Below, piece by piece: positions 15,176-64,000 of a DNA stretch of 64,000 nt. Source of the DNA: Hymenobacter busanensis. GTDB taxonomy: Bacteria; Bacteroidota; Bacteroidia; Cytophagales; Hymenobacteraceae. The number at the start of each line of letters is the position of its first letter. Position 1 is the stretch's first letter. The position numbers and the translations under genes are program-made. Below the pieces are notes generated by a model. It did not search any database. It saw nothing but the letters and a program-made list of their open reading frames with translations, and had not been told where the DNA came from. The stretch lies in contig NZ_VTWU01000002.1 of NCBI RefSeq assembly GCF_008727865.1, positions 372,001 to 436,000 of the forward strand, written 5' to 3'.

Positions 15176-18100
15176 ATGCCCACGTTCTCGCACCTGCACT
15201 GCCATACCCAATATTCCCTGCTCGACGGGCAGGCCAGCATTTCGGCGCTGATGAAAAAGGCGCAGGCCGACGGCATGCCTGCGGTGGCCCTCACCGACCA
15301 CGGCAACATGTTTGGGGCGTTTAACTTCGTGGCCGAGGCCAACAAGTACAATGTGAAGCCCATTGTGGGCTGCGAGTTTTACTTGGTGGACGACCGGCAC
15401 AAGAAAAGCTTCAGCCGCGAGAAGGGCGAGCGGGACGTGCGCCACCACCAACTGCTGCTGGCCAAGGACCAAGCCGGCTACCAGAACCTGGCCAAGCTTT
15501 GCTCCATGAGCTTTATCGAGGGCGTGTACTCCAAGTACCCGCGCATCGACAAGGAGCTCCTGCTGCAGTACCACGAGGGGCTGATTGCGACGAGCTGCTG
15601 CATTGGGGCCGAGATTCCGCAGGCCTTGCTGTGGAAGACGGAGGCCGAAGCCGAGGAAAAGCTGAAGTGGTGGCTCGACGTGTTCGGCGAGGATTATTAC
15701 ATCGAAATCCAGCGCCACGGCATCGAGAACATCGACAACACCGGCAAAAGCCAGGAGGACCTCAACCAGATTCTGCTGCGCTGGGCCCAGAAGTACAACG
15801 TCAAGGTCATCTGCACCAACGACTCGCACTACGTCAACCAAGAGGACTTCGCGCCCCACGATTTGCTGTTGTGCGTGAACACCGGCGAGGAGCACAGCAT
15901 CCCCGTCGGCGACTTCCAAACCAAGTATTTCCGCCTGATTTCGGGCCAGAACGAGGTGCTCTACGACCACCTCGACCGCCTGCGCCCCCTCGCCGGCAAA
16001 GACGACCACGTGCGGCGCCAGCTCATGCGCATCGACGAGGAAATGCAGATGCCCAAGCCCCGCTCGCGCTTCGGCTTTCCCAACGACCAGTTCTACTTCA
16101 AGACCCAGGCGGAAATGGCGCACCTCTTCGCCGACGTGCCCGAGAGCCTGGACAACACCAACGAAATCGTCGACAAAATCACGCCACCAAAACTGGCCCG
16201 CGACATCCTGTTGCCCAACTTCCCGCTGCCGGCCGGCTTTGCCAACGCCGACGAATTTCTGCGCGAGTTGACCTATGTGGGTGCTTTTGGGCCGGGTGCG
16301 GGCAAGGGCATTGTCACGCTGGCCAAGCCCCCGCGCTACGCCGAACGCACCCCCGAAATCGAGGAACGGCTGGAGTACGAGCTGCGCATCATCCAGACGA
16401 TGGGCTTCGCCGGCTACTTCCTCATCGTGCAGGACTTCATCAACCAAGGCCGCAACATGGGCGTGGCCGTGGGCCCGGGCCGCGGCTCGGCGGCCGGCTC
16501 GGCGGTGGCCTACTGCGTGGGTATCACCAACATCGACCCGATTAAGTACTCCCTGCTGTTCGAGCGTTTCTTGAACCCGGAGCGCGTGTCGATGCCCGAT
16601 ATCGACATCGACTTTGACGACGTGAACCGCCAGCGCGTCATCGACTACGTGGTGGACAAGTACGGCAAGACGCAGGTGGCCCAAATCATCACCTTCGGTA
16701 CGATGGCGGCCAAATCCAGCATCAAGGACGTGGCGCGGGCCATGGAGCTGCCGCTGCCGCTCACCAACGAGCTGGCCAAAATGGTGCCCGAAAAGCCCGG
16801 CACCACGCTGGCCGGCGCCTTCGCCGAAAACCAGGAGCTGGACATGATCCGCCGCGACGACGCGCCGGACAACCTGCGCGGCCAGATTCTGCGGCTGGCT
16901 GAAAAGCTCGAAGGCTCGGTGCGCAACACCGGCATTCACGCCGCCGGCGTCATCATTGCCCCCGACGACATCACGAAGTACATTCCGGTGTCGACCTCCA
17001 AGGACTCGGACCTGCTCGTGACGCAGTTCGACGGCAAGGTGATTGAGTCGGCCGGGATGCTCAAGATGGATTTCCTGGGCCTGAAGACGCTCACCATCAT
17101 TGTGGATGCCCTGGAGCTGATCAAGAAAAACCACGGCGTCGACATCAACATCGACGACATCCCGCTCGACGACGAGAAAACCTACGCCCTCTACCAGCGC
17201 GGCGACACCATCGGCACGTTCCAGTTCGAATCCGAGGGCATGCGCATGTACCTCAAGGACCTCAAGCCCACCAACATCGAGGACCTGATTGCCATGAACG
17301 CCCTCTATCGCCCGGGCCCGATGCAGTTCATTCCGAACTTCATCAACCGCAAGCACGGGCGCGAGGAAATCGAGTACCCGCACGAGCTGCTGGAGCCCAT
17401 TCTGAACTACTCCCAGGGCATCATGGTGTATCAGGAGCAGATCATGCAGGCCGCCCAGATTCTGGCCGGCTACTCCCTCGGCGGCGCCGACCTCTTGCGC
17501 CGCGCCATGGGCAAGAAGGACATGAAGAAGATGGCCCAGGAGCGGGAGAAATTCTGCAAGGGCGCCGCCGAGCTGCACGGCATCAAGGAGAAGAAGGCCA
17601 ACGAGGTGTTCGACGTGATGGAGAAGTTTGCGGCCTACGGCTTCAACCGCTCCCACTCCGCGGCCTACTCGGTGGTGGCCTACCAGACGGGCTACCTCAA
17701 GGCCAACTACCCGGCAGAGTACATGGCCGCCGTGCTGACCAACAACATGTCGGACATCAAGAAGGTGACCTTCTTTATCGAGGAAGCCCGCCGGCAGAGT
17801 GTGCAGGTGCTCGGCCCCGACGTGAACGAGTCGGTGCTGAAGTTCAACGTGAACGAGAAGGGCCAGATCCGCTTTGGCATGGCGGCCGTGAAAGGCGCGG
17901 GGGAAGCAGCCATTGAAAACATTGTGGCGGAGCGGGGTAAGAAAGGCCCTTTCACCGATATTTTCGACTTCTCCAAGCGCGTCAACCTGCGGGCCGTCAA
18001 CAAGAAAACTTTCGAAAGCTTGGCCTTGTCCGGGGCCTTCGATTCGTTTGAACGGTACCACCGTCGGCAGTTTGTGGAAGCTCCCTCGGGCGACCAGAAC

Positions 18101-49600: not shown

Positions 49601-50938
49601 ATGTCCCTTTTGTTTGAACCTCGGGATGTAAATTTCAACGAATTGCTTCACCAGAAGTACGGTAAAACTTACACTCAGAAGCACAAGTGGAAGTACTATC
49701 ACTTGTACACCCTGCTGCTAAAAAAGAGCCTGTATAGCAACGATATTTGGCATGCCATTTCCTCCACGGCACTGCGCGACCTGTACGGTCGCTCCGGTGC
49801 GCGTGGTAATGAAAAATGGGTTTATCGTCTCATTCGCGAGGACTTGAAAAGCTGGAACGTCATCCTGTACCATACCGAGCAGGTCGATGTAACCAAACGA
49901 ATTGCCCGCTACAAGATTTTGGATGAGCGGGTGTTGAGCGGCTATCATCTAGTGGATACAGTAGTTCCCCGGCGACATGCACCGCCAAAGCCGGCGCCTA
50001 CCAAGTATGCGGGCATCCACGGCATGATTCAGCAAACCGCGAAAAAGCTTCGAGTGGATTACACCGCGGCGCTAGCCTTTATCGAGGATGCATACGCTCA
50101 AAGCTTATCGCTTAAGGACAAGCCTATCCAATGGAATGTCATTCAAAAGGGAAAGTGGTCGGCGTTCAGAAACCGCGTGGTGGACGCCTCGATTTACTCG
50201 CGCTGGCTTTGGCACCTTTATAAGCTTGACAGGGGCGCATACGGCTTCAAAGTGGACCTCGGCAATACCAACCGGGTGTTTTACCTGCTCACGCAGATTC
50301 CCAGCCATTTGCGGAAATTCATGTTACTCGGGGGCAGACACCTTGTGGAAATAGATATTACTGCCGCCCAGCCCCTCCTGTTCACGAACATGGTGCTGGC
50401 GTACTGCCGCCAGCAAGGCATTACGGCAATCCCCGACGACGTGCGGCGGTGGAAAACATTGTGCGAAGAGCCCGACCCAGATAAAAGTTTATACCCGGCG
50501 CTGCATTCGCTTATGGTTGGTGCCCAACTCCTGTTGGATTCGCACCTGCGGTTCGACCCGTTAACCAAGAAAGCATACCGGGTGCGGGAGTACACAAAAC
50601 TTTTTAAGGCAGAATTTTTCGCTAAAATATTTTTTGACGAAGACAAACGGACCCAAATGCGCCGTGTTTTTGCGGAGGCATTCCCCACTGTTTCCGCTGC
50701 CATAACTCATTTTAAACGAGGAGACCACCGCAACTTAGCGTTAGCGCTGCAGCAGATGGAAGCTGATTTAGTCGTCGGAACGGTCTGCGCCCGGCTCTAC
50801 GCGCAAAATATCAGGGCGCTTCCTGTTCACGATGCACTGTACGTCCACGCTGAGCATGTAGAAACCGTGGTCGATGAGATAAAGAAAGCTTTCCAAGATA
50901 TTAACCTCTGCGCACGGATGAAAATAAAGAATATGTAG
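49601..50938 (+). CDS. putative family A DNA polymerase-like protein of a mobile element
   Basis: A 445-residue protein whose C-terminal half resembles the palm and fingers of family A DNA polymerases: HLVEIDITAAQPLL with Asp252 and Gln257 (motif A-like), REYTKLFKAEFFAKIFF with Arg329, Lys333 and Lys336 (motif B-like) and LPVHDALYV with His410 and Asp411 (motif C-like HD), in the right order and at plausible distances. The first 100 residues look like a winged-helix region (LRDLYGRSG ... YRLIREDLKSWNVI). There is no exonuclease domain, and neither is there a YxDD motif, so it is not a reverse transcriptase. It may be a replication protein of the island. The family assignment is inference by eye. 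Confidence 0.5.
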   Translation: MSLLFEPRDVNFNELLHQKYGKTYTQKHKWKYYHLYTLLLKKSLYSNDIWHAISSTALRDLYGRSGARGNEKWVYRLIREDLKSWNVILYHTEQVDVTKRIARYKILDERVLSGYHLVDTVVPRRHAPPKPAPTKYAGIHGMIQQTAKKLRVDYTAALAFIEDAYAQSLSLKDKPIQWNVIQKGKWSAFRNRVVDASIYSRWLWHLYKLDRGAYGFKVDLGNTNRVFYLLTQIPSHLRKFMLLGGRHLVEIDITAAQPLLFTNMVLAYCRQQGITAIPDDVRRWKTLCEEPDPDKSLYPALHSLMVGAQLLLDSHLRFDPLTKKAYRVREYTKLFKAEFFAKIFFDEDKRTQMRRVFAEAFPTVSAAITHFKRGDHRNLALALQQMEADLVVGTVCARLYAQNIRALPVHDALYVHAEHVETVVDEIKKAFQDINLCARMKIKNM

Positions 50939-51490: not shown

Positions 51491-54400
51491 TTAATAATAC
51501 TGCTCCACGTACTGATACGCCTTCTCGAACAGTTCATGGTCCTTGTGAAGCTGGTACTTGAGCAGCGCCTTTCGCAGCTCGCTACGCACCAGCTTCTTCC
51601 CAGCTTCGGTGGTCTGCCAGCTTGGGAAGCGAACCTTGCGCACGATTTCGTCAATGTCCGTGACGATGCGCTCCACGATAGCGGGCGTTTTATCAGTGCG
51701 AATTTCGAGGAACAGCTCGGTCAGGGCGGACTTGGCGTTTTGCTGCTCGGCGACTGGGGCTTCGACGTTTTTCTCGGCTTGGAGAGTTTCGGTTGCTAGC
51801 TGGCACAGCTCCTTGATGAACTCGATGCTGCTTATTAATCCTTGTTCGGCGCGGGCGCGCACCTTTTCTAGCCGCTCACTGAGGGCGAGGAATTCGGGGC
51901 TGCTGTGACGCCCAAGACGCCCGGCGATAAGCTTTGCCAGCTTTTTCGCCTTCTTGGGGTCTTTGGCATTCATCAGGTCATCGATGACATCGGCGTTAAG
52001 CACCATTTCCTCCATATCATCGTGAACGCCGCTTACGTGGACGTGCTCATGGATGAGGCGGGTGGTTTCGGCACCAAGGGCAAACCATAGCAAGCGTCCG
52101 TTATCGGAGGCAGCGGGGCGTACGGAGTCGTACACCTGCGACAACCACTTGTAATCCACCCGATACGGCGACAGAAACGGGTCTGGGCTCAGGGCTTCCC
52201 ATATTTTCGACAGCGCCCCATAGTCGATAGCGAAGGCGTCGCGCTTCTCGTTTGTATCGATGCAGTCCTGCGCGGCTTCCAATCCCTCAAACCCTACCAA
52301 CGTGCGGTCCACGCCGGGGAAATGCGAGAGGGCTTTGGCAAGTAAACTCGGCAGCATGACCTTGTACTCCGCCATGCTGGTCACCACGTTCTGCATGGTC
52401 TTCTCATCGAACGCCAAGGCTTTTGCCGTGTCATCGAAAGAGCCGAAATAATCAACGATACGCCCAAAACCTTTGTTCGGGAACAGGCGGTTGGTGCGGC
52501 AGATGGCTTGCAGCAGCGTGTGGTCCTTGAGGCTCTTGTCGAGGTACATGGTCTGCAGTACCGGCGCGTCGAAGCCAGTAAGCAGCTTTGCTGTAACGAT
52601 GAGGAACTGCAGCGGGTGCTTGGGGTCCTTGAACTTGTTCAGCAGCTTTTCCTGCTGGTCACTGTTCATCGCCCATTGCTTTTTGAAGGCGTCCGGGTCG
52701 TTGGCAGTAGTGGAGATGACCACGGCGCTGGCTTCCGGAGAAAGCAATTTGTCCAGCTCTTCTTTGTACTGCACGCAGGCGTAGCGGTCCGGCGTCACTA
52801 TCATTGCCTTGAAGCCGTGCGGCTCCACATGGGTCTGGAAGTGCTGCACGATGTCCTCGGCAATAGCGTGGACCCGTTGGGGGGCTTTCTGAAACTCGAT
52901 GAGGTTGGCAGCCCGCTTGCTAAGCGTGTTTTGGTCGGCTTCGCTCAGGTTGGCGCGCTCCGCCAGCTCGGCAAATGCGGCATCCAGCTTTTCCTTGTCC
53001 ACATGCACTTCGGGGAGACGCGGCTCGAAGTGCAACTCCAAGGTTTGCTTATCGGCAATGCTTTCCTGAAACGTGTACCGGGACAGGTAGCCGCCCTCGT
53101 CGGTTTCAGAGCCGAAGGTGGCGAAGGTGTTCTGGTCGCGCTTGTTAATTGGAGTACCCGTCAGCCCGAAGAAGAAAGCATTCGGCAGCGCCTCGCGCAT
53201 ATACACGCCTAAGTCTCCTTCTTGGGTACGGTGCGCCTCGTCGCAGAGCACGATGATGTTGTCGCGCAGGTTCAGGTTCTGGGGCGCATCCTGAAATTTT
53301 TGGATGGTGGTGATGATAACCTTACGGGTATCCTTCGCCAGTTTATCCCGCAGGTCTTGAATACTGTCGGCGGGCACCACGTTGGCAACCTCGGCGCTAA
53401 GGAACGTACCGCTGATTTGCTGGTCGAGGTCCTGCCGGTCTACCACAATGAGAATTGTGGGACTTTTCAGCGCCGCCAGGCGCCGCAGCTTCTGGGCGGC
53501 GAAAACCATCAGCAGAGACTTGCCGCTACCTTGAAAGTGCCAAAGCAAGCCCTTCCTGATGGTTCCATCCACCACGCGGTCCACGATGGCGTTGGCGCCC
53601 TCGTATTGCTGGTAACGTGCCACCACCTTCATCTTTTTCTTCTTGCTGTTAGTGGCGTACAGCGTGAAGTTTGCCAGCATGTCCAGCAGGGTAGCGGGGT
53701 TGAGCAAGGAGCAAAGCTGCTTGCCGACCTCCTTCATGCCCACGGCTTGCGCCAGTTCGTCGGCGGGTACGCCATCGGCAGCTTCCAAGCGCCACGGGCA
53801 CCAGAACTCAAGCGGGGTGCGCACGGCACCGTAGAAGAACTCCTTGCCCTCGGTGGCGAAGCTCAGCACATTCGGCACGAACAAGGGTGTCACAGCATTT
53901 TCGTACACCTCGTGCACCTCGTATGCACCATCGAGCCATGTAACAGCGGGGCGGACCGGCGTTTTGGCTTCGCCCACCACCAGCGGAATACCATTCACGA
54001 ACAGCACCACGTCGGGAATCTTGGTCTCGGTGCCGGTGCGGATATGGAACTGGTTGGTGGCGATGTAGTCGTTGTGGGTCAGGTCCTGAAAATCGAGCAG
54101 GCGCACCGTTACGTGCTGCCCATCGTTTCCGAAGGGCATACTCTTCTCCCCGCGCACCCATTTGGCAAACTCCTCGTTGGCACCCACCAGCCCGACCTCA
54201 TGTACGGCGAGCAAAATGTTGCGCAGCTTGTAGATGACTTCATCGGCGCGGCTGGGCTGGGCGGCGATACTGGGGTTGAGCCGGATGAGGGCATCCTTCA
54301 CATCGGCTTCCAGCAGCACGTCGGTTTCCTTGCGCTTGAGATGGTTAGCGGGTACGTAGCGCCACTGGCACGTTCCCGCGCTGGCGGCTGCTCCCGGCAC

Positions 54401-54520
54401 AGCCCCGTAGGTAGCAGCCGGCTCGTGTACCTTGCCGTTACCGTTGCTGTTCAAGTTTACGCCCGTGAGCTTATGGATGATGGAATACTCGACGGTGTTG
54501 AGTTCGTTGAAAGAAGGCAT
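51491..54520 (-). CDS. hsdR: type I restriction enzyme subunit R
   Basis: Motor and nuclease subunit of a type I restriction system: translocates DNA and cuts it away from the recognition site. The 1009-residue protein has an N-terminal PD-(D/E)xK nuclease (Asp170, Glu184, Lys186 in IPDVV and VVGEAK), then superfamily 2 helicase motifs: Walker A HFQGSGKS near residue 330, the DEAH box at residue 427, TGTPINK and a QAICRTNR motif VI, and a C-terminal helical domain that would contact HsdM. All key residues are in place. It is the last gene of a minus-strand operon, 20 bases after the GHKL ATPase gene. Confidence 0.95.
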   Translation of the reverse strand: MPSFNELNTVEYSIIHKLTGVNLNSNGNGKVHEPAATYGAVPGAAASAGTCQWRYVPANHLKRKETDVLLEADVKDALIRLNPSIAAQPSRADEVIYKLRNILLAVHEVGLVGANEEFAKWVRGEKSMPFGNDGQHVTVRLLDFQDLTHNDYIATNQFHIRTGTETKIPDVVLFVNGIPLVVGEAKTPVRPAVTWLDGAYEVHEVYENAVTPLFVPNVLSFATEGKEFFYGAVRTPLEFWCPWRLEAADGVPADELAQAVGMKEVGKQLCSLLNPATLLDMLANFTLYATNSKKKKMKVVARYQQYEGANAIVDRVVDGTIRKGLLWHFQGSGKSLLMVFAAQKLRRLAALKSPTILIVVDRQDLDQQISGTFLSAEVANVVPADSIQDLRDKLAKDTRKVIITTIQKFQDAPQNLNLRDNIIVLCDEAHRTQEGDLGVYMREALPNAFFFGLTGTPINKRDQNTFATFGSETDEGGYLSRYTFQESIADKQTLELHFEPRLPEVHVDKEKLDAAFAELAERANLSEADQNTLSKRAANLIEFQKAPQRVHAIAEDIVQHFQTHVEPHGFKAMIVTPDRYACVQYKEELDKLLSPEASAVVISTTANDPDAFKKQWAMNSDQQEKLLNKFKDPKHPLQFLIVTAKLLTGFDAPVLQTMYLDKSLKDHTLLQAICRTNRLFPNKGFGRIVDYFGSFDDTAKALAFDEKTMQNVVTSMAEYKVMLPSLLAKALSHFPGVDRTLVGFEGLEAAQDCIDTNEKRDAFAIDYGALSKIWEALSPDPFLSPYRVDYKWLSQVYDSVRPAASDNGRLLWFALGAETTRLIHEHVHVSGVHDDMEEMVLNADVIDDLMNAKDPKKAKKLAKLIAGRLGRHSSPEFLALSERLEKVRARAEQGLISSIEFIKELCQLATETLQAEKNVEAPVAEQQNAKSALTELFLEIRTDKTPAIVERIVTDIDEIVRKVRFPSWQTTEAGKKLVRSELRKALLKYQLHKDHELFEKAYQYVEQYY

Positions 54521-54540
54521 AGTGGCGACCGGAGATACGA

Positions 54541-57500
54541 CTAGAGAATAGCAGCCTTAATATCTTGGATTAGAGCGTCAAATGAGTTGCGACGTGCGTC
54601 GATGAATTCGTGGGTGACGAACACCTTGCTTTGATGCAGCGACGATACATCAAACCAAACGGGTGCATCAGTCTGGCTGTATAGTTGCTCGAAGTGCTCA
54701 ATTTCTTTGGCAATTGGCTCCATCGTTGACTGCAAGTCTTTCACGTACACTAGCTCTTGCCGAACGTGTTCCGCAGTCACATCTTCGGCGCGACGGTCGC
54801 GCCCTACTACGCAGAGGGCAAAGGGCTCCTCGCCTTTAGCCGCCCGCTTTGCTTGTGATTGTGCCAGCCGAATGTGCTGCGGATTGTCCTTCTTGAAGGA
54901 TTTTAGCTCTATGTAGAAGGCTTTATTGGTAGCAAGGTTGCGCACGGCAAAATCGTAGGAGCCGATACCGTGGTAATCAATTTGCGCTACCGTGGCTGTA
55001 GTACCCGAGCCGGGCTCTATGACAACTGTAACACCGGCTTCCATCAGAGCTTCCTTGAAGGCTCGCTCCATTTCTGCTCCGATGCTCTGCAGGAACTTGA
55101 AACTGGCAACGTCGCCTTCAAGGTTTGCCGCAAACTTTAACACTTGGTCCAGCACCGCGTCGCTGCTGGTGAGCTGCGCCAGTTTACGCAGCTTAGTTAC
55201 GTCGGTGCCGGATTCAGTGATGGCAACTAAGTCGGCGATAGAATCGGCTTGACGCAGCAGTTTTATCACGTCGCTGCCCTTACCGCTCTTCTCGATGTTC
55301 AGGATGTAGAACATCCGCCCCGACTCCTCGTGAAACTGCGCCAGATATTGCTTTGCCAACGCCTGATGCACGTTACACCAGTCAATTAGCGTCAGAAGCT
55401 GGTCACGGTAGTCCATGTGCTTCCGCTGGTTGCTGATGCTGTCCACCTTCAGCATGATGTCGTTGCCCAGCTCATCGAATTTGTACGCGCCTTTTGGCAA
55501 GTTCAAGCCGATACCGTCCATGAGCAACTGCGGCATCCAACGGGGCTTCGACCGGTCAAAGGCGTGGAGCAATTCCAGCAGTTCCTCATCGAGCGGCTGG
55601 GTAGGAGTGCCGAAGTTGTACAGGTCTTTATAGGCGCAGAGCTTGCCTTCGCGATTGGGCACGATATTGCCAAACTCAAGCAGCGGTTTGAACGTGCCGC
55701 TCTCTGCCACAAACCGTAAGTAGCGCCCCAACAAGTTCACCGCGTCTTCCTCGTCGCGGTTCAGCGACGTTGCTAGCCCTGCTACCGTTTGCATATTGGA
55801 GATGCAGCCGTTCAGATGCAACGTCAGCAGTTGCGTGGCTTTGCCGGGGTCGAAATGCTTTAGGCTCTCAACGGGCAGGAAGTCTTCCTCGAAGTGCAGC
55901 AGCTCCTGTGCATACTTAAATAGCTGGCTCCGGAAGGTGGTATCGTCGGCGCTGGGCGAGGTTAGACGCAGTAGGTCAACGAGAATTTGCTGAGCGTCGC
56001 CACGGCGGAGGAATGCCGATTCTAACGTATCGCCGCTGTTCAGCCGTTCTTTCAGTACCCGGTTGATTTCGGCGGATGCCTCACGCAGCCCCCTGTCTTG
56101 GTGCTTGTAGCCGGGCAGTACGGTGTCACGCCGTGCCAATTCCTGCCGCCACGGCAGATTCAGCTTGTGCAGCACGTCCAGAATGGGTGCTGGAATCAAT
56201 TCGTCGGCGCGTTCTACATAAAGCTTATCTAAGGGGCGCAACTCGCCGTGCTGATTGGGCACGGCGGCGTACGTCTTCAGCAAATCGAGCTGCTTTTGCT
56301 CTGCCAGATAGGCGTATAGCTCATTGAGCCAAACAATTGCTGCTTCTTCGCTGCCACCTTCTCTTTCGCTCATGGGCAGAGCCGCCAGTGTTTTCTTCTC
56401 CGCTACGAGGCGCAGTAGGTCTTCGAGCCCGAGGTGCAGCAACTTGCCCCAGCTCAGCATTTCTTCTTCAATGCCCAGCGCCTTTATCCACGGCGTGAGC
56501 AGCTCCCGGCGCGGCACGGCATCCTTGCCCAGAAAGCCTGCCGCCAGCTCCCACAGCGCCTCATTGTCTTCCTGCTTGGCATTGGCACGCAGGCGTGGGA
56601 TACGCACGGTTGCCAGCACCGCCGGAACCCTGTCTTCGGTTTCCACGAGGGGCAGTTCCAGTAATGCTTTGCGCCACGTGGTTTGCAGGGCTTTGTACCA
56701 CGCGGTAGTAGTCGCGTCGAAACTGGGATTTACTTCGGGAATACGGGTATTTGCCAGTACGAAACGGTTACGGGCGTTGTGCTCCAACAACCACGCGGTG
56801 AATTCCAGCGCCGCCACTTGCGCAGCTTCCAGCAGGGCGCGGTTTTGTGTGGGCTCCTCGCCTTTCCCATTCAGGAAAATACTGTCGCGGGGTTCGGTAG
56901 GAAAAAATTCGAAGCCGTTCAGGGCGAAGGGAAAGTGGAATTTCTCCGAGCCAATCAGCGGAAAGTCGCGGTAGAGCATGGGTTGCTCCCCAGTAGGCGG
57001 TACGAGGGTCAGCGACTCGAAATCTTCGACTTCCGCCAGCAGACGCAGTTCCTCGGTTTCATAGGCGACATAGTGCCGATAGTATATACTCCCCTGCTTG
57101 GCACTGTGGGTGGATACCGTGTACCACGCAATACGGTCTTCGGAGCGGTCCTTCGTGACTTGGTAAGTGTGCGTATCACCATCGGGCAGACTGACGCGCA
57201 CCTTCTTTATCTTCAGATTCGGAATGTTGAGCAGCGTACCGGGGAGGGTGTGTACCAAGTCGGCGATGCCGGCGCGGGCTGCCTCGTGGTTTTCCTCCTC
57301 CTGCAGCACGTAGCAGAACTCGGTGTGCAGGTCAGCTTCCGTGCGGTCTTGCGCGTAGGTGGGCAGCAGCGGAAACTCATCCTCGTTGTGGTCCAGATAG
57401 ATTATTCTGTCGAGCGATTCGCTGATGCTGCTGAGCAGTGCTTCGGACGTGGTACCGGAGCGGTCGAGGATGAGCTTGAACTGGCGGTGCTGGTCATTGG

Positions 57501-57906
57501 CGCGCTTCACCACGCCCCCCACTTCTATCACGTCGGCAAGCAGGTGGGTGCTGATGAAGCCCGTACCGAACTTACCGGTCACCTCCTCGTCGCTGCTGTC
57601 CGACGCCTTAGAACTGACCTGCTGAATCAAGCCAGTGATGTTCTCCACGTGGAACGGGTCGCCGTTGTGGCGGAAGCTCAGGCTTTCGGGCGTCAGCCGG
57701 ATTTCGATGGTTACGCGCCCGAAAGCGTTGGTCACGTCCTTGGCATTCTGCATCAGCTCCCACACCCAACGCCGGTTGGAAAGGTGTGCGTTGTTGCGCA
57801 GGTTCTTCAGAATCTGGATGATTTTGTCCGCCGTGAGCTTGTAATTATTGCGGATAATACTTTTCTGAACGTCGGATATTTCGGGTTGGATAGGCGGGGT
57901 TGACAT
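54541..57906 (-). CDS. HSP90/sacsin-like GHKL ATPase fused to PD-(D/E)xK nuclease-like domain
   Basis: A 1121-residue protein embedded in the restriction operon. The N-terminal 200 residues carry a GHKL ATP-binding fold of the sacsin/HSP90 type: N box ELMQNAKD (Glu50, Asn54, Asp57), a G1-like FRHNGDPF and a G2-like GKFGTGF (111-117). The middle 750 residues are helical and unrecognised. The end holds a restriction-endonuclease-like motif: Asp985 (SYDFAV), then Glu1000 and Lys1002 in YIELKS, matching D-x14-E-x-K of PD-(D/E)xK nucleases, DUF3883-like. It lies 17 bases after hsdS and 20 before hsdR. GHKL ATPases linked to restriction systems are known (the MORC/MutL-like families discussed by Iyer and co-workers), but I do not recognise this protein as a named defence gene. 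Confidence 0.75.
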   Translation of the reverse strand: MSTPPIQPEISDVQKSIIRNNYKLTADKIIQILKNLRNNAHLSNRRWVWELMQNAKDVTNAFGRVTIEIRLTPESLSFRHNGDPFHVENITGLIQQVSSKASDSSDEEVTGKFGTGFISTHLLADVIEVGGVVKRANDQHRQFKLILDRSGTTSEALLSSISESLDRIIYLDHNEDEFPLLPTYAQDRTEADLHTEFCYVLQEEENHEAARAGIADLVHTLPGTLLNIPNLKIKKVRVSLPDGDTHTYQVTKDRSEDRIAWYTVSTHSAKQGSIYYRHYVAYETEELRLLAEVEDFESLTLVPPTGEQPMLYRDFPLIGSEKFHFPFALNGFEFFPTEPRDSIFLNGKGEEPTQNRALLEAAQVAALEFTAWLLEHNARNRFVLANTRIPEVNPSFDATTTAWYKALQTTWRKALLELPLVETEDRVPAVLATVRIPRLRANAKQEDNEALWELAAGFLGKDAVPRRELLTPWIKALGIEEEMLSWGKLLHLGLEDLLRLVAEKKTLAALPMSEREGGSEEAAIVWLNELYAYLAEQKQLDLLKTYAAVPNQHGELRPLDKLYVERADELIPAPILDVLHKLNLPWRQELARRDTVLPGYKHQDRGLREASAEINRVLKERLNSGDTLESAFLRRGDAQQILVDLLRLTSPSADDTTFRSQLFKYAQELLHFEEDFLPVESLKHFDPGKATQLLTLHLNGCISNMQTVAGLATSLNRDEEDAVNLLGRYLRFVAESGTFKPLLEFGNIVPNREGKLCAYKDLYNFGTPTQPLDEELLELLHAFDRSKPRWMPQLLMDGIGLNLPKGAYKFDELGNDIMLKVDSISNQRKHMDYRDQLLTLIDWCNVHQALAKQYLAQFHEESGRMFYILNIEKSGKGSDVIKLLRQADSIADLVAITESGTDVTKLRKLAQLTSSDAVLDQVLKFAANLEGDVASFKFLQSIGAEMERAFKEALMEAGVTVVIEPGSGTTATVAQIDYHGIGSYDFAVRNLATNKAFYIELKSFKKDNPQHIRLAQSQAKRAAKGEEPFALCVVGRDRRAEDVTAEHVRQELVYVKDLQSTMEPIAKEIEHFEQLYSQTDAPVWFDVSSLHQSKVFVTHEFIDARRNSFDALIQDIKAAIL

Positions 57907-57923
57907 AGAATTAGAAGTGGGCG

Positions 57924-59030
57924 TTAGGCAGAGAAAATTTGGTTGATGAGCTGCGTTTTTACTTTGTCGGATTGGGATATTGAAGCCTCACAACCTTCGA
58001 TTGTCTTATCGATACGCTTGAGTTTCAATTCAACTTCAGGTTGGTCTTCTTTCGGGGGCAGAAAAAGGCTCATCTCCATGAGCGTAGACTTGTTGAGCTT
58101 AGGTCTGGTAGACCCAGAAACGTAGTCGGAAATATCGCTGTGGTTGAAATATTCTTTCACCAAGTATCTGCTAGCATCTGTAATCCTCAGAACGTGGGCG
58201 TGGTTATTTACCCAGCATTTTTCGTCTACTTCGTATGCAATATCCAGATTTCTTGTGCTCAAGTTCTCACCATCCTCAGACACAAGGAGTATCGGCTCAT
58301 TGTACAAGAAACCATCGACGTAATCCACTACCCCGCTTGCTCCATAATACGGGTATATACCCGTGCTACGGTCTGATTTCTTCACGGGCTTGCGTTTGCT
58401 ATCCAAACAAACTGCGATTTGCTCGATAGTCACCTGCTCCGTCTGGGCAGGCTCAAATACCACACGCAGGGTCTCTTTTTTTGAAGCCCTTAATGAATCT
58501 AACACATTCCGTTGCTTCTCCCCTACCTCGTCCGCCGCCCAAAGCAATTCCGCCAGCCGGGCTTGCTGGTCGCGGGGCGGCAGCAGGAACTCTTCCACTT
58601 TCAGGTGTCCCCAGTTCACGGTAGGCGACAAACCTCCCACCGAAATATCAACTACCCGGTGCATAAATGCATCGGAATGCAAGAAAAAAGGGAACAAGCG
58701 CGGCTCGATAACATCGGGCTTGGCGCGGAGCACCATTGCGTGCGCGGAGCAGATGCCATCGAATGTGGCTACGGCAGCTTTACGCTGATAGGCACGGCGG
58801 CGACCAAAAATCACGTCGCCAGCATACACCAGCAGCTTGATTCCGTCCACATCGGCGGGAGTTCCTTTCCGTTTGATGTGCAAGGAGCCGGAGTCTAAGT
58901 GTTCCAGCCCCACATAGATTGTCAAGTCGGTGGCACCCGGTTCCACGCGCTTCGAGATATTGTGGGCTATTTCATCAAAACGGAAGGTTTGCCAGTCCGA
59001 TTTGTCAAGGGTTTCGAGCAGATTGGGCAT
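57924..59030 (-). CDS. hsdS: type I restriction enzyme specificity subunit S
   Basis: DNA recognition subunit, 368 residues from the ATG that overlaps the hsdM stop as TAATG. Two target-recognition halves are seen, about 10-175 (GLEHLDSGS ... GDVIFGRR, LPPRDQQARLAELLWAAD) and 185-365 (GIYPYYGASGVVDY ... YVSGSTRPKLNKS, LPPKEDQ), each followed by a coiled-coil helix, the standard HsdS plan. The bipartite sequence recognised cannot be read from it. The translational overlap couples it to hsdM and the next gene begins 17 bases later. Confidence 0.93.
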   Translation of the reverse strand: MPNLLETLDKSDWQTFRFDEIAHNISKRVEPGATDLTIYVGLEHLDSGSLHIKRKGTPADVDGIKLLVYAGDVIFGRRRAYQRKAAVATFDGICSAHAMVLRAKPDVIEPRLFPFFLHSDAFMHRVVDISVGGLSPTVNWGHLKVEEFLLPPRDQQARLAELLWAADEVGEKQRNVLDSLRASKKETLRVVFEPAQTEQVTIEQIAVCLDSKRKPVKKSDRSTGIYPYYGASGVVDYVDGFLYNEPILLVSEDGENLSTRNLDIAYEVDEKCWVNNHAHVLRITDASRYLVKEYFNHSDISDYVSGSTRPKLNKSTLMEMSLFLPPKEDQPEVELKLKRIDKTIEGCEASISQSDKVKTQLINQIFSA

Positions 59031-60499
59031 TAGGATTCGGAAAGCTCCGCGAGTAGCGCGGTAAGAGAAGTGCGTAGGCTGGTGGCACTGGCGGACCACT
59101 CCGCCACCGTTTCGGTAAGGGTTGAAGCAGCAGCGGCGGTACCGCGCACGTTCGAGACGTAAAAGGCAATGTTGAGCGAGGCGTCGCGGGCAAGTACATC
59201 CTCCATCGGCACCACCTTGGCAAAGCCCTCCACATCCTGAAAGTCCCGGTAGGTTTTCAGGATTTTCTGAATGTGGGTTTCATCGAGGTGGCTGATGGTT
59301 TTTTCGGTCTTCACCTCGTCCACGGCGTTGATGAACAGGATGCGTCCTTGCCGTTCTGCGGGCTTGCGGTTGCGGCACAGCAGCAGGCAGCTCTCCATCG
59401 GCGAATTGTAGAACAGGTTCGGTCCCAAGCCAATCACCGCGTCCACTACATCGGCTTCAATCATCTTGCGTCGGATGTGCGCCTCCTGATTGCGGAACAG
59501 CACGCCGTGCGGATGCAGCACCACCGAGCGCCCGGTGTCGGGCTTGGTGCTGAGCTGGATGTGCTGCTGGAACGCGTAGTCGGCGCAGCCTTGCGGGGGT
59601 GTGCCCCAGATGTTGCGCCCCCACGGGTCGTGCTGAAAGCCGGGCTGGTCCCAGCGTTTGATGGAGTACGGCGGGTTTGCCAGCACCACGTCGAACTGCC
59701 GCAGCCGGTCGTGGTGCAGCAGGCGCGGGTGGCTCAGGGTGTTGCCCCGCGCAATCTGGAAGTCCTGAATGCCGTGCAAGAACATGTTCATGCGGGCAAT
59801 GGACGAGGTAATCAGGTTGATTTCCTGCCCGTAAATGCGCAGCGTGCGGTACTCCTGCCCTGCCTCCTTGAGCTGCAGCGCCGCGTTGAGGAGCAGTCCT
59901 CCGCTGCCGCAAGTCGGGTCATATATCGATTCCCCCGGCTGCGGGTCCATCAGCAAGGTCATCAGCCGTACCACCGTGCGGTTGGTGTAGAACTCGGCAG
60001 CAGTGTGTCCGCTGTCGTCGGCAAATTTCTTTATGAGGTACTCGTAGGCGTTGCCGAGTTGGTCCTGCGGTACGGCAGCCAAACTGAGCGTCTGCTGGGA
60101 GAAATGTTCAATGAGGTTGAGCAGCGTGGCATCGGACAGGCGGTCCTTGTTGGTCCAGTTCGCATCGCCGAAGATGCCGCCGAGCACATCGGGGTTAGCC
60201 TTTTCGATGGTGTGCATGGCAGCCAGCAGCGCCGCGCCCACGTCGGTCGTTTGAGCGCGCACATCGCGCCAGTGCGCCCCATCCGGTATCTGGAAGCGGT
60301 GGTGTTCGGCGAAAGTGGCGTAGTCCTTATCCCCTTCCGAATCCTTCATGGCTTGGGCAAACTCCTCGTCGTACACGTCGGAGATGCGCTTGAAGAACAG
60401 TAGCGGGAAAATATATTGCTTGTAATCTCCGGCGTCGATGTGCCCGCGCAGGTGAATGGCGGCACCCCAGAGGTACTTTTCGAGTTCGGTTTGGGTCAT
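59030..60499 (-). CDS. hsdM: type I restriction-modification methyltransferase subunit (copy 1)
   Basis: Adenine-N6 methyltransferase subunit, 489 residues. The HsdM N-terminal helical domain (1-140, LLFFKRISDVYDEEF) precedes an N6 methyltransferase core with the SAM-binding YDPTCGSGGLLL and the catalytic NPPY (Asn275). It heads the operon hsdM-hsdS-GHKL-hsdR. It is clearly paralogous to the second copy at 62228-63712 (shared stretches such as YIFPLLFFKRISDVYDEEFA), with which some nucleotide stretches are still about 90 percent identical by eye. Confidence 0.95.
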   Translation of the reverse strand: MTQTELEKYLWGAAIHLRGHIDAGDYKQYIFPLLFFKRISDVYDEEFAQAMKDSEGDKDYATFAEHHRFQIPDGAHWRDVRAQTTDVGAALLAAMHTIEKANPDVLGGIFGDANWTNKDRLSDATLLNLIEHFSQQTLSLAAVPQDQLGNAYEYLIKKFADDSGHTAAEFYTNRTVVRLMTLLMDPQPGESIYDPTCGSGGLLLNAALQLKEAGQEYRTLRIYGQEINLITSSIARMNMFLHGIQDFQIARGNTLSHPRLLHHDRLRQFDVVLANPPYSIKRWDQPGFQHDPWGRNIWGTPPQGCADYAFQQHIQLSTKPDTGRSVVLHPHGVLFRNQEAHIRRKMIEADVVDAVIGLGPNLFYNSPMESCLLLCRNRKPAERQGRILFINAVDEVKTEKTISHLDETHIQKILKTYRDFQDVEGFAKVVPMEDVLARDASLNIAFYVSNVRGTAAAASTLTETVAEWSASATSLRTSLTALLAELSES

Positions 60500-60641: not shown

Positions 60642-61496
60642 ATGAACGAATTCGGTGGTGTCTGGACCGAGGAGAAGATTGAGGCTTTCATGAAGTATGT
60701 GAAAGCGTACCTACAGGTGATGAAAAACCGAACCCACTTTCGGTTACTGTACTTCGATGGCTTCGCTGGGTCGGGCACGATAAGCCCCGATGAAGACCAC
60801 GACCCAGAGCAGTTCATTCAGGGCGTGGCGACCCAAGTGCTGTCCATTACGGAGCCACGCGAGTTCGACGCGTATTTCTTCGTGGAAAAGAACCCCGAGC
60901 ACGCGCAAAGCCTATCAGAACTGATAAGAGCCCGTTTTCCTGATAAAAGAGTGCGCGTAGTCGAAGGCGACTGCAACGAGAAGCTGATGCAGTTGGCTAC
61001 GTACATGCGTAACCCCGAACGCATTAACGACCGCGCCTTAGTGTTCATCGACCCGTACGGGATGCAACTCAGTTGGAGCACCATCGAGGCGTTGCGCGGG
61101 GCGGAAATGGACGTTTGGATTCTCGTGCCGACCGGCGTAGCCATTGGTAGGCTTCTCAAGAACAACGGCGAGATTCAGCCGGGCTGGATGGCACGGCTGC
61201 AGGATTTTCTCGGCATGAGCCCAGAGGAGATAAAAGCGTACTTTTACCGCCAAGAAACGAGCCTGACGCTGTTTGGTGAAGAAACAGTCACCGTCAAACA
61301 GGACAAAGCCTCGGAACGTGCAGGAAGGCTGTATGGGGAGCGAATTCGGTCGGCTAACATTTTTAGGCATGTTTCTGAGCCATTAGTGCTTAGAAATTCC
61401 AGAAATGCTATCTTATATCACTTTATTTTGTGTTCCAATAATGCAACAGCACTGAGAATTGCTAACGATATTAACAAAAAAATGAACAGGAAATGA
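60642..61496 (+). CDS. tcmP: three-Cys-motif partner protein TcmP
   Basis: A 284-residue protein matching the TcmP family (partner of three-Cys-motif proteins). Family features: an N-terminal WTEEKIEAFMKYVKAYLQ, YFDGFAGSG resembling a SAM-binding loop, VEKNPE, GDCNEK and FIDPYGMQLSW, all consistent with a Rossmann, methyltransferase-like fold. It is followed by the three-Cys protein gene after four bases, so the pair is co-transcribed. The joint function is not established. It is divergent from hsdM copy 1 across a 142-base gap. Confidence 0.85.
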   Translation: MNEFGGVWTEEKIEAFMKYVKAYLQVMKNRTHFRLLYFDGFAGSGTISPDEDHDPEQFIQGVATQVLSITEPREFDAYFFVEKNPEHAQSLSELIRARFPDKRVRVVEGDCNEKLMQLATYMRNPERINDRALVFIDPYGMQLSWSTIEALRGAEMDVWILVPTGVAIGRLLKNNGEIQPGWMARLQDFLGMSPEEIKAYFYRQETSLTLFGEETVTVKQDKASERAGRLYGERIRSANIFRHVSEPLVLRNSRNAILYHFILCSNNATALRIANDINKKMNRK

Positions 61497-61500
61497 CCCT

Positions 61501-62220
61501 ATGGCTCAGTCAAGTATAGAGTGGACCGAGATGACTTGGAACCCCACCACCGGGTGCGACAAGCTATCTGCCGGCTGCAAGTTTTGCTACGCCGAGGTGA
61601 TGACCAAGCGCCTCCAAGCAATGGGGCTGGAAAAATACTCGGCAGGCTTCCGGTCGATTCGAACCCACGAGGCTGAGCTAACGCGCCCCTATGAGTGGAT
61701 GAAGCCGAGAAAGGTATTCGTCAACTCCATGAGCGACCTGTTCCACGAGGATGTACCATTGGATTTTATCCAGCGCGTCTTCGGCACCATGAACGACTGC
61801 CCGCAGCACCAATTTCAGGTACTGACCAAACGAGCGGAACTATTGGAGCAGTACTCCCCCACTCTTAGCTGGTCGCCGAATATTTGGATGGGGGTATCCG
61901 TTGAAGACCATCGGGTTCAGTTCCGTATCGACCACTTACGCCGTTGCGGCGCGCACGTCAAGTTCTTATCCCTAGAGCCCCTGTTAGGTCCACTCCCCGA
62001 CTTAGACCTAGAAGGCATTCACTGGGTCATTGTGGGGGGCGAATCTGGGCGCAAGCCGCGCCCCATGCAGCAAGAATGGGTGGAAGACATCCGCCAGCAA
62101 TGCTTGCGGGCGGGGGTAGCTTTCTTCTTCAAGCAGTGGGGCGGCATTAACAAGAAAGCGGCAGGAAGAACCTTGAACGGCAGGACCTACGACGCGATGC
62201 CGTTGGTAGCCTGCCATTAA
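61501..62220 (+). CDS. three-Cys-motif (Gp37/Gp68-like, DUF5131) protein
   Basis: A 239-residue protein of the phage Gp37/Gp68 family (DUF5131). Its N-terminus carries CDKLSAGCKFC (Cys19, Cys26, Cys29), a Cys spacing that resembles but does not equal the CxxxCxxC of radical SAM enzymes, and a radical SAM-like TIM barrel probably follows (VFVNSMSDLFHEDV, FQVLTKRAELL, WMGVSVEDH, FLSLEPLLGP, VIVGGESG). The gene begins four bases after the tcmP stop. It ends seven bases before the end of the convergent hsdM copy 2. Confidence 0.88.
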   Translation: MAQSSIEWTEMTWNPTTGCDKLSAGCKFCYAEVMTKRLQAMGLEKYSAGFRSIRTHEAELTRPYEWMKPRKVFVNSMSDLFHEDVPLDFIQRVFGTMNDCPQHQFQVLTKRAELLEQYSPTLSWSPNIWMGVSVEDHRVQFRIDHLRRCGAHVKFLSLEPLLGPLPDLDLEGIHWVIVGGESGRKPRPMQQEWVEDIRQQCLRAGVAFFFKQWGGINKKAAGRTLNGRTYDAMPLVACH

Positions 62221-62227
62221 GATTCCT

Positions 62228-63712
62228 CTACAGCAACTCGAACTCCCCGAGCAGCTTACGAAACCGGTCTTCCGCTTGCCATGCCGCCTGTGCCGCCGTT
62301 TCGAGCTGCGTCAGTGCTTCGTCAAGGCTGGGCAACGCGTCGCCGGCAGCTTTCTCGATGTACAGTGGGATGTTCAGGTTGAAATCCTTTTGAGCAACCT
62401 CTGCTGCATCCACGAGGCGGGCATGGTGCGGCACGTCTTCGCCAGCAGCGTACCACCCGTAGATGGTATCCACGTGCTCCGACTCCAAGAAGTTCTGGGC
62501 TCTGCCCACGCGTACTTGGTTCGACGCGTCGATGAACAAGATTTTACCACGTCGTTCGGCAGGCTTCTGCGCCCGGAACACCAGCAAGCAAGCTGCCAGC
62601 GTAGTGCCGTAAAAGATATTCGCGCCCAAGCCAATTACGGCGTCCAGCTTATCCTGCTCAATCAGCGCCTGTCGGATACGCCCTTCGGCGCCCTTACGGA
62701 ACAGCGCACCGTGTGGCAATACCACCGCCATACGCCCCCGGTCGGGCTTCATGGACGAAATCATGTGCTGAACCCATGCCATATCGCCGTTTGATTTTGG
62801 CGGCACCCCAGCGAAGTTGCGTCCGAAGGGGTCGGCGCTCCATTCATCCACGCCCCATTCTTTAAGCGAGAAAGGCGGATTGGCTACCACGCAGTCGAAC
62901 TGACGGAGTTGGTCATGCTGAACGAATGCCGGGTAGCGTAAGGTGTCGCCCCGCGCAATCTGGAAGTCCTCGATGCCGTGCAGGAACAGGTTCATGCGGG
63001 CGATGGTCGAGGTGGTCAGGTTCTTCTCCTGCCCGAACATGCGCAAGGTGCGGTAGTCGCGCCCTGCTTGGCGCAGATGCTCAGTGCACTCAAGCAACAT
63101 GCCCCCCGTCCCCGCTGCCGGGTCGTATATCGATTCCCCCTCCTGTGCATCCAGAATGAGCCCGATTAGGTGCACCACCGAGCGCGGAGTGTAGAACTCG
63201 CCCGCTTTTTTGTTGGTCAGGTCGGCGAAGTGCTTGATGAGGTACTCGTAGCTCTGCCCTAGAATATCGGGCTCTACGGCGTCGTTTGAGAGGTTATACT
63301 GAGAGAAATGCTCAATCAAATTGATGAGCAAGCCATCGGGCAGCTTCTCGCGGTTGGTCCACGGCGCGTCGCCGAAGATGCCGTAGAGCTGCTTAGGGTT
63401 AGCGGACTCGATGCCTCGGAATGCCGCTTGCAGCGCCTCGCCCACATTGGTGGACACCTCGCGTACATCGCGCCAGTGGCAGCCATCGGGAATGACGAAC
63501 CGGTGCAGTTCCGCCAACGCCGCGTAATCCGCGTCTCCCTCCGATTCCGCCAGCGCCTGCGCAAACTCCTCGTCGTACACGTCGCTGATGCGCTTGAAGA
63601 ACAGCAGCGGGAAGATGTACGCCTTAAAGTCCGCTGCATCCACTGGACCTTTCAATATCCATGCGGCGTGGGATAAATGCTGTTCGAGCTGGGATAGGGA
63701 GAGCTTTTTCAT
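62228..63712 (-). CDS. hsdM: type I restriction-modification methyltransferase subunit (copy 2)
   Basis: A second complete HsdM-like adenine methyltransferase, 494 residues, with SAM-binding YDPAAGTGGMLL and catalytic NPPF (Asn278). The HsdM N-domain is intact. It has its own promoter and a palindromic operator-like site, but no hsdS or hsdR of its own in the window; they may lie past 64000 or have been lost. It is separated from the main operon by the oppositely oriented TcmP/three-Cys pair. Whether it uses the same HsdS as copy 1 is an open question. Confidence 0.93.
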   Translation of the reverse strand: MKKLSLSQLEQHLSHAAWILKGPVDAADFKAYIFPLLFFKRISDVYDEEFAQALAESEGDADYAALAELHRFVIPDGCHWRDVREVSTNVGEALQAAFRGIESANPKQLYGIFGDAPWTNREKLPDGLLINLIEHFSQYNLSNDAVEPDILGQSYEYLIKHFADLTNKKAGEFYTPRSVVHLIGLILDAQEGESIYDPAAGTGGMLLECTEHLRQAGRDYRTLRMFGQEKNLTTSTIARMNLFLHGIEDFQIARGDTLRYPAFVQHDQLRQFDCVVANPPFSLKEWGVDEWSADPFGRNFAGVPPKSNGDMAWVQHMISSMKPDRGRMAVVLPHGALFRKGAEGRIRQALIEQDKLDAVIGLGANIFYGTTLAACLLVFRAQKPAERRGKILFIDASNQVRVGRAQNFLESEHVDTIYGWYAAGEDVPHHARLVDAAEVAQKDFNLNIPLYIEKAAGDALPSLDEALTQLETAAQAAWQAEDRFRKLLGEFELL

Positions 63713-63781: not shown

Positions 63782-64000
63782 GTGTATTTCTCCTTCTACC
63801 GGGCAATCAAGGCACCGTATTCTTCGTTTAGAGTGCAGCTATGAGCTTTTTAAAAATATTTTTTACCGCTACTACCCCCATTTTAAAACTTTCCGATTTC
63901 GAGACTCTATAACGCCGGATTCTGTGAGAAACCTACCCCAAACTGGGCGTGGTCACGGCTCTATTCATCAACAACTTCTTTCTCTTTCCACTCATGGCAA

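Follow-up and report, generated by a model that had tools for sequence, protein, structure and literature searches.

A TmtA-family GHKL ATPase with a probable nuclease end in a cargo slot of a type I restriction operon of Hymenobacter busanensis

The stretch of DNA analyzed here, hereafter the window, comprises 64,000 nucleotides of Hymenobacter busanensis (assembly GCF_008727865.1, contig NZ_VTWU01000002.1, positions 372,001 to 436,000), and it carries a type I restriction-modification (R-M) operon into which a gene for a putative GHKL ATPase-nuclease protein of 1121 amino acids (aa) is set. Four genes, hsdM, hsdS, the 1121-aa gene, and hsdR, follow one another closely packed on the minus strand, all within the window. 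The first, hsdM1 (59030 to 60499; 489 aa, with the motif NPPY), matches PF02384 and PF12161 over cut-off. The specificity gene hsdS (57924 to 59099) matches PF01420 over cut-off in two stretches along with the PADLOC model Specificity_I, and its start is more likely the ATG at 59030, which has one base in common with the hsdM stop (TAATG). The gene for the 1121-aa protein (54541 to 57906) is intact and is separated by 17 bases from hsdS and by 20 from hsdR; gene coordinates and family matches thus confirm the placement described in an earlier note on this DNA. Finally, hsdR (51491 to 54520; 1009 aa) is identified by TIGR00348 (E=9e-160) and by PF04313, PF18766, and PF22679, all over cut-off. 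When the host genome was searched with the 1121-aa protein, the sole match was the protein itself, with the window on contig 4.

By sequence, the 1121-aa protein is a member of a family that is already catalogued, because the PADLOC model for TmtA (PDLC03967) matches it along its whole length: model positions 4 to 1060 of 1063 align with residues 9 to 1120 (E=5.8e-206), and we see no difference from the family as drawn by this model and its sister models. The earlier note had held that the protein could not be named, a claim that this match overturns. A literature search by the name TmtA, combined with type I restriction or with PADLOC, gave no paper on the family among the matches listed, those for TMTA being unrelated; a study of embedded defenses by Payne et al. 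2024 may well treat it. The next PADLOC model, PDLC03973, is UzuA and so offers no clue to a TmtA partner.

The N-terminus is predicted to be a sacsin/HSP90-type GHKL ATPase, since it has the E/N/D residues of the N-box together with G1 and G2. Specifically, the sacsin-type NCBIfam model NF047352 matches it with E=7.4e-22, Pfam HATPase_c does so below cut-off only, and the ATP-binding core (residues 45 to 129; 57520 to 57774, minus strand) contains WELMQNAKD (E50, N54, D57), HNG, and GKFGTGF. In an alignment of 20 rows, made up of the window protein and 19 relatives hand-picked for having the C-terminal domain, E50, N54, D57, G82, G114, G116, and F117 are identical throughout, and N81 and K112 are identical in 16. 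The full-length AlphaFold model is poor (mean pLDDT 57), with residues 60 to 300 better and the C-terminal end mostly below 50. When this model was searched with Foldseek, the matches included TRAP1, GRP94, HtpG, and MORC3, with a best E of 1.1e-4, TM-scores of at most 0.5, and no residue ranges given. The family match, the motifs, and these structural relatives together bear out the sacsin/HSP90-like ATP site that had been read from the sequence alone. The middle part of the protein is long and helical, and a sequence search of the PDB yielded nothing useful.

The C-terminus (residues 937 to 1121; 54544 to 55098, minus strand) is probably a PD-(D/E)xK nuclease of the NO VEIN C-terminal (NOV_C) kind. 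The plant protein NO VEIN, after which the domain is named, is a eukaryotic developmental factor that has an HSP90-like ATPase too. The earlier note had inferred a nuclease end from the pattern D985-x14-E1000-x-K1002, which occurs a single time in the protein. We did not use the pattern as proof, because shuffled copies of the protein contain D-x14-ExK by chance at a mean of 0.30 per copy; we take it as real because it is conserved across relatives that have this end. E947, D985, E1000, K1002, and Q1018 are identical in all 20 hand-picked rows, and a loose ExK pattern lies near the C-terminal end in 22 of the 38 rows of the family tree described below. Pfam NOV_C matches the ends of several relatives weakly, just over cut-off in L085 (6e-5) and just under it in L093 (5e-4) and L095 (E=0.0016). 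At E<=1 it is found in two of the seven members of family alignment A1, and six proteins matched by the last part of the TmtA model have clear NOV_C ends (3e-9 to 2e-19). Furthermore, a model of residues 920 to 1121 consists of a helix, three strands, a helix, and a strand, with D985 and E1000/K1002 on neighboring strands, a strand order consistent with the nuclease fold that had been predicted. DUF4263, the Shedu nuclease, was absent from the Pfam scans at E<=1.

The nuclease end of TmtA has been exchanged as a block. The nearest relative of the window protein comes from Hymenobacter fodinae (L002, again as L089), where it lies outside any hsd operon. Identity between the two proteins jumps at residue ~933-937, from 56% before residue 937 (919 positions) to 95% after it (185 positions). 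Third-codon identity rises from 0.46 to 0.75 across the break (Fisher p=5e-13) and, at codons for the same amino acid, from 0.56 to 0.77. The best single break falls at residue 933 (z=7.4, versus 4.3 for the largest of 2000 shuffles), and the border coincides with the start of the nuclease-like domain. In the DNA, the common block (54511 to 55103, minus strand; ~89% identity by blastn) runs 30 bases beyond the TmtA stop, with 24 of 30 bases identical, after which identity falls to 15 of 70; it extends across the spacer into hsdR, whose first ten bases, start codon included, fall within it. This arrangement would fit if the end found in H. fodinae had come from a gene next to hsdR, and a transfer in the opposite direction may also have occurred. 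A second pair of TmtAs, from L141 and L142, shows the reverse contrast, with 47% identity before the end and 27% within it.

The gap between hsdS and hsdR is a cargo slot that has been taken repeatedly by unrelated genes. When the window HsdR was searched in 380 genomes of the order, 14 relatives were found: 12 full-length proteins of one subfamily (62-66% identical to the window HsdR, which is counted among them), one distant protein (33%), and one fragment. TmtA lies between hsdS and hsdR in five of the 12 operons of this subfamily. Elsewhere, the slot holds an AAA ATPase and a small gene (L166, where hsdM is in two frames), many small genes of which three were scanned without a Pfam match (L169), a subtilase gene among others (L170), DarT with a macro-domain gene (L171), or UvrD and DEAD helicases (L172). 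In L167 it holds a pair of 324 and 835 aa, nearly the lengths of the AAA and subtilase pair of L141, with the contig ending before hsdS. The slot of L168 is empty, hsdR lying 32 bases from hsdS, and that of L142 contains DarT, a macro-domain gene, and TmtA together. TmtA can come very close to hsdR, at 1 base in L142 and 3 bases in L143. A subunit of the type I enzyme would be kept in sister operons and be as conserved as hsdR; TmtA is present in five of 12, and across these five operons the TmtAs are just 22-44% identical to each other while the HsdR proteins are 62-83% identical. The slot itself is not new: PMC12255303 already reports that DarTG2, or a different gene pair in four genomes, occupies the hsdS-hsdR gap, which its authors describe as a potential hotspot of recombination.

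Relatives of TmtA were gathered with the family model at E<=0.001 from overlapping samples, and many of the matches are partial. By sample, genomes with a match number 24 of 395 (phylum), 26 of 395 (class), 50 of 390 (order), 33 of 204 (family), and 4 of 87 (a sister order); those with a match of at least 200 bits number 9, 15, 14, 8, and 2, respectively. Surrounding stretches were taken for 27 and then 12 of them, plus L002 to L005 and the viral-contig locus L112, with G1246, which has a match of at least 200 bits at a contig edge, left out. For hsd genes, the first 26 genomes were scanned with Pfam models and every locus with local profiles; the HsdS, HsdM, and HsdR assignments in L141 to L151 and L112 rest on these profiles (from the window, L085, L093, and L095) rather than on Pfam, with frames chosen by a greedy script. 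The resulting tree has 38 rows, the window among them, of which four were judged to have no readable surroundings and 34 were left. It is a quick tree in which long branches may be misplaced, those of L143 and L149 included. Among mobile elements, a tblastn search of plasmids gave three records, in each of which the match spans less than 80% of the query, and phages gave no match. Viral contigs had no relative when queried with single proteins, the C-terminus, or stand-alone NOV_C proteins; a query with the family alignment found one, L112.

On several occasions, TmtA genes have moved into the hsdS-hsdR gap of a type I operon. Of the 34 relatives with readable context, 9 are inside a type I operon and 25 away from one, 8 of these beside an SLFN_AlbA_2 gene and 17 elsewhere. 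Seven of the nine inside copies are placed precisely in the hsdS-hsdR gap (the window, L085, L093, L141, L142, L143, and L149); in L095 the gene follows hsdS, with hsdR ahead of it, and in L112 it stands behind hsdR. The earlier note had described the protein as built into a type I restriction operon and named homologs found mostly away from restriction operons as the finding that would speak against this. Homologs are indeed mostly away, also among the 19 that bear the ExK end (11 away, 8 inside), and sister operons carry other cargo, so that the notion of a built-in part of the restriction machine is not supported; a link with the slot is, as seen in the seven exact placements and in an overlap above chance that we take up below.

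On the tree, hsd embedding is scattered and SLFN pairing mostly inherited. With 9 rows, the hsd label requires 8 changes, against a mean of 8.2 after shuffling (282 of 500 shuffles gave a number this low), whereas the SLFN label requires 2 changes for 8 rows, a number reached in none of 500. We set aside a single ancestral embedding, given these 8 changes, at least 6 of which are forced by starred branches. We likewise set aside L004 as a member of the hsd group: the HsdR profile gives just 26 bits for a gene of 946 aa that lies 4 kb downstream, and the locus, which has SLFN_AlbA_2 in the gene two places downstream, was put under "other."

The family also points to a modular use of its ATPase. 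Eight short tree rows without the ExK pattern, all but one of them in one starred branch, adjoin a separate SLFN_AlbA_2 gene, which suggests that the TmtA ATPase comes with swappable effectors: a nuclease or some other end fused to it, or the product of an adjacent SLFN gene. SLFN_AlbA_2 was called by Pfam in L099, L100, and L109 and by a local profile in the other rows; a TIR domain occurs in L100 and a HEPN-like stretch, under the Pfam cut-off, in L099 and L109. Short relatives beside such a gene were seen in L099, L100, L101, L108, L109, L145, L146, L147, and L150, at ~850 aa where whole and in two frames in L108. Each such pair probably forms a separate two-gene system. Two other relatives of 829 aa, in L106 and L107, are without the ExK pattern, and that of L106 has at its end a different domain that contains the stretch FIDAKTT, perhaps another nuclease. 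In L097 (2206 to 11588), a TmtA relative directly follows an apparent Wadjet operon and overlaps its end. The Wadjet call draws on a JetD_C match just under cut-off and on the size and order of the other three genes, the large one having no Pfam match; the operon is perhaps a second kind of host operon for TmtA.

A second hsdM gene lies upstream of the operon. This gene, hsdM2 (62228 to 63712, minus strand; 494 aa, NPPF), matches PF02384 and PF12161 and is 52% identical to hsdM1 on the same strand, in company with one hsdS and one hsdR. Since the two lineages stay apart in three sister operons (L141, L143, and L149), at 65-78% identity between M1 proteins and 68-86% between M2 proteins, the sequences suggest that the type I enzyme contains HsdM subunits of two different kinds. 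In a literature search on two hsdM genes in type I restriction, two different HsdM proteins were absent from the titles and abstract openings among the matches listed. Between hsdM1 and hsdM2, inverted on the plus strand, stand genes for TcmP, the three-Cys-motif partner (60642 to 61496; TIGR04474 E=1e-43; PADLOC PDC-M41A E=2e-112), and for a DUF5131 protein (61501 to 62220; PF07505 E=1e-99; PADLOC PDC-M41B E=2e-123). Elsewhere this gap contains GmrSD_N (L169, L171), HipA_C among others (L143), PDDEXK_3 (L141), genes without a Pfam match (L149, L170), or only ~100 bases (L168). It is therefore a second cargo slot.

The window ends in the start of a plus-strand tyrosine integrase gene (63949 to 64000), which continues past the window (contig position 435949 on). 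In L113, where the gene (15950 to 17389) matches PF00589 and PF17293 over cut-off, it is followed by an aldose epimerase gene, and the R-M block appears to form the margin of an integrated island. The 20 kb around the operon in L113 contain no tRNA and no clear att repeat of at least 18 bases; a tRNA-Ser lies ~17 kb beyond the integrase (L114). None of hsdM2, the TcmP and DUF5131 pair, or the integrase start had been mentioned in the earlier note. On the other side of hsdR, a plus-strand gene of 445 aa (49601 to 50938) has no Pfam match at E<=0.01 and shows polymerase-A-like stretches by eye.

Several known systems resemble the window protein in part. VcSduA is likewise a single protein with an N-terminal GHKL ATPase and a C-terminal PD-(D/E)xK nuclease, and its phage defense is reported to be lost when either site is mutated (PMC12137116, as outlined there). 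The nuclease of VcSduA is DUF4263, whereas the end of the window protein resembles NOV_C. The paraMORC3 proteins are GHKL proteins found in R-M neighborhoods, some members of the family carrying an E-D-ExK nuclease at the C-terminus (PMC2292703); by their description, the setting there is one of superfamily II helicases, DNA methylases, and VSR-type endonucleases, in contrast to a sacsin-type protein in a type I hsd operon. DarTG2 of enteropathogenic Escherichia coli occupies the same slot, according to the account of the locus in PMC12255303, but is a toxin-antitoxin pair of another host rather than a single GHKL-nuclease gene, though L142 has a DarT gene and a macro-domain gene together with TmtA. 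Finally, PrrC of the EcoprrI locus is also encoded by a nuclease gene inside a type I locus; it combines an ABC ATPase with a HEPN RNase, in place of the predicted GHKL and PD-(D/E)xK parts of TmtA, and is reported to be under the control of the R-M enzyme.

We consider it reasonably likely that TmtA is an autonomous ATP-gated nuclease, probably abortive, that is carried as second-line cargo, with an abortive, signal-gated step as the favored role. In such a scheme, ATP binding would dimerize the N-terminal clamp and keep the C-terminal nuclease off. Once the ATPase or the middle part sensed a phage-made signal, the nuclease would be freed and would cut phage or host DNA. This would put a stop to infections missed by the type I enzyme, perhaps with loss of the cell itself. 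The R-M operon may provide co-expression and shared transfer as a package, with no catalytic partnership. The clamp and nuclease mechanism draws on established GHKL biology and on the reported need of VcSduA for both sites (PMC12137116). Separate roles as sensor or switch and as effector are supported by the occurrence of the ATPase part with different ends or partners, and autonomy by the lack of hsd genes beside most of the relatives sampled.

Some of our results weigh against this interpretation. With the order samples of 390 and 380 genomes, which are nearly equal, treated as one of 385 and relatedness ignored, TmtA and the R-M subfamily overlap in 5 genomes versus 0.44 expected (p=2e-5), a preference beyond pure ride-along. 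In addition, two loci scored as away, L090 and L147, lie ~7-8 kb from type I genes. Such enrichment, along with seven placements exactly between hsdS and hsdR that are scattered over the tree, speaks for the main rival, a PrrC-like guard in which the assembled type I enzyme silences TmtA and a phage anti-restriction protein that disables the enzyme fires it. There is precedent in PrrC, a type I locus also housing its gene (PMC3710099 and PMC12707154, in their accounts of that locus). Nevertheless, we regard a guard as rather unlikely: the family is not bound to hsd loci, with 25 of 34 relatives, the nearest included, outside them; TmtA diverges far more than HsdR in the operons where both occur; and DarTG and other genes occupy the same slot. 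Enriched there and yet replaced by varied occupants in sister operons, TmtA prefers the slot without being a fixed part of it. An integral restriction accessory, making a second cut in DNA translocated or cut by HsdR, would account for the tight packing with hsdS and hsdR, down to the 1 and 3 bases noted above, but the sister operon L168 has no TmtA in its short spacer and most sampled relatives live apart from hsd, which makes this role very improbable.

Other points bear on the nuclease itself. Pfam NOV_C gives no match on the C-terminus of the window protein, and a profile-profile comparison of TmtA C-termini with stand-alone NOV_C proteins reached a probability of 9% (E=0.003), with the same residues aligned. 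The model of residues 920 to 1121 is of low depth (mean pLDDT 67, pTM 0.63; three sequences, two of them 90% identical). Its Foldseek search gave no significant match (best E=0.027, top ten 0.03 to 0.3). The top ten included the Wolbachia CidA/CidB and CinA/CinB complexes, PaqCI, and MspJI, all of which we take to hold PD-(D/E)xK enzymes, and nocturnin, which has another fold. The ExK pattern is missing from 16 of the 38 tree rows, some of them cut short or with another end. The want of a significant fold match and the rows without ExK could mean that the C-terminus is a dead or DNA-binding PD-(D/E)xK relic and the protein a chaperone-like clamp. This we think improbable, given five active-site-like residues that are invariant in the 20 hand-picked rows and a nuclease-like module that is exchanged intact. 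An autonomous, ATP-gated nuclease carried as cargo thus remains our preferred explanation. More speculatively, and with considerable doubt on our part, two-HsdM type I operons could be a dedicated defense platform with two cargo slots, TmtA being favored in the second because it is gated by a signal from the restriction enzyme, and its nuclease ends being swapped like those of polymorphic toxins.

The window protein belongs to a catalogued defense family and lies in a known kind of place; what is new here is the detail on what occupies the slot and on how the C-terminal module has been exchanged. An architecture, a predicted sacsin-type switch with a probable NOV_C-like nuclease, can now be assigned to a PADLOC family of which our search found no description. 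The exchange between an hsd-embedded and a free copy fixes the border of that module within a few residues. More generally, our findings show that one spot in a type I operon takes up unrelated genes repeatedly.

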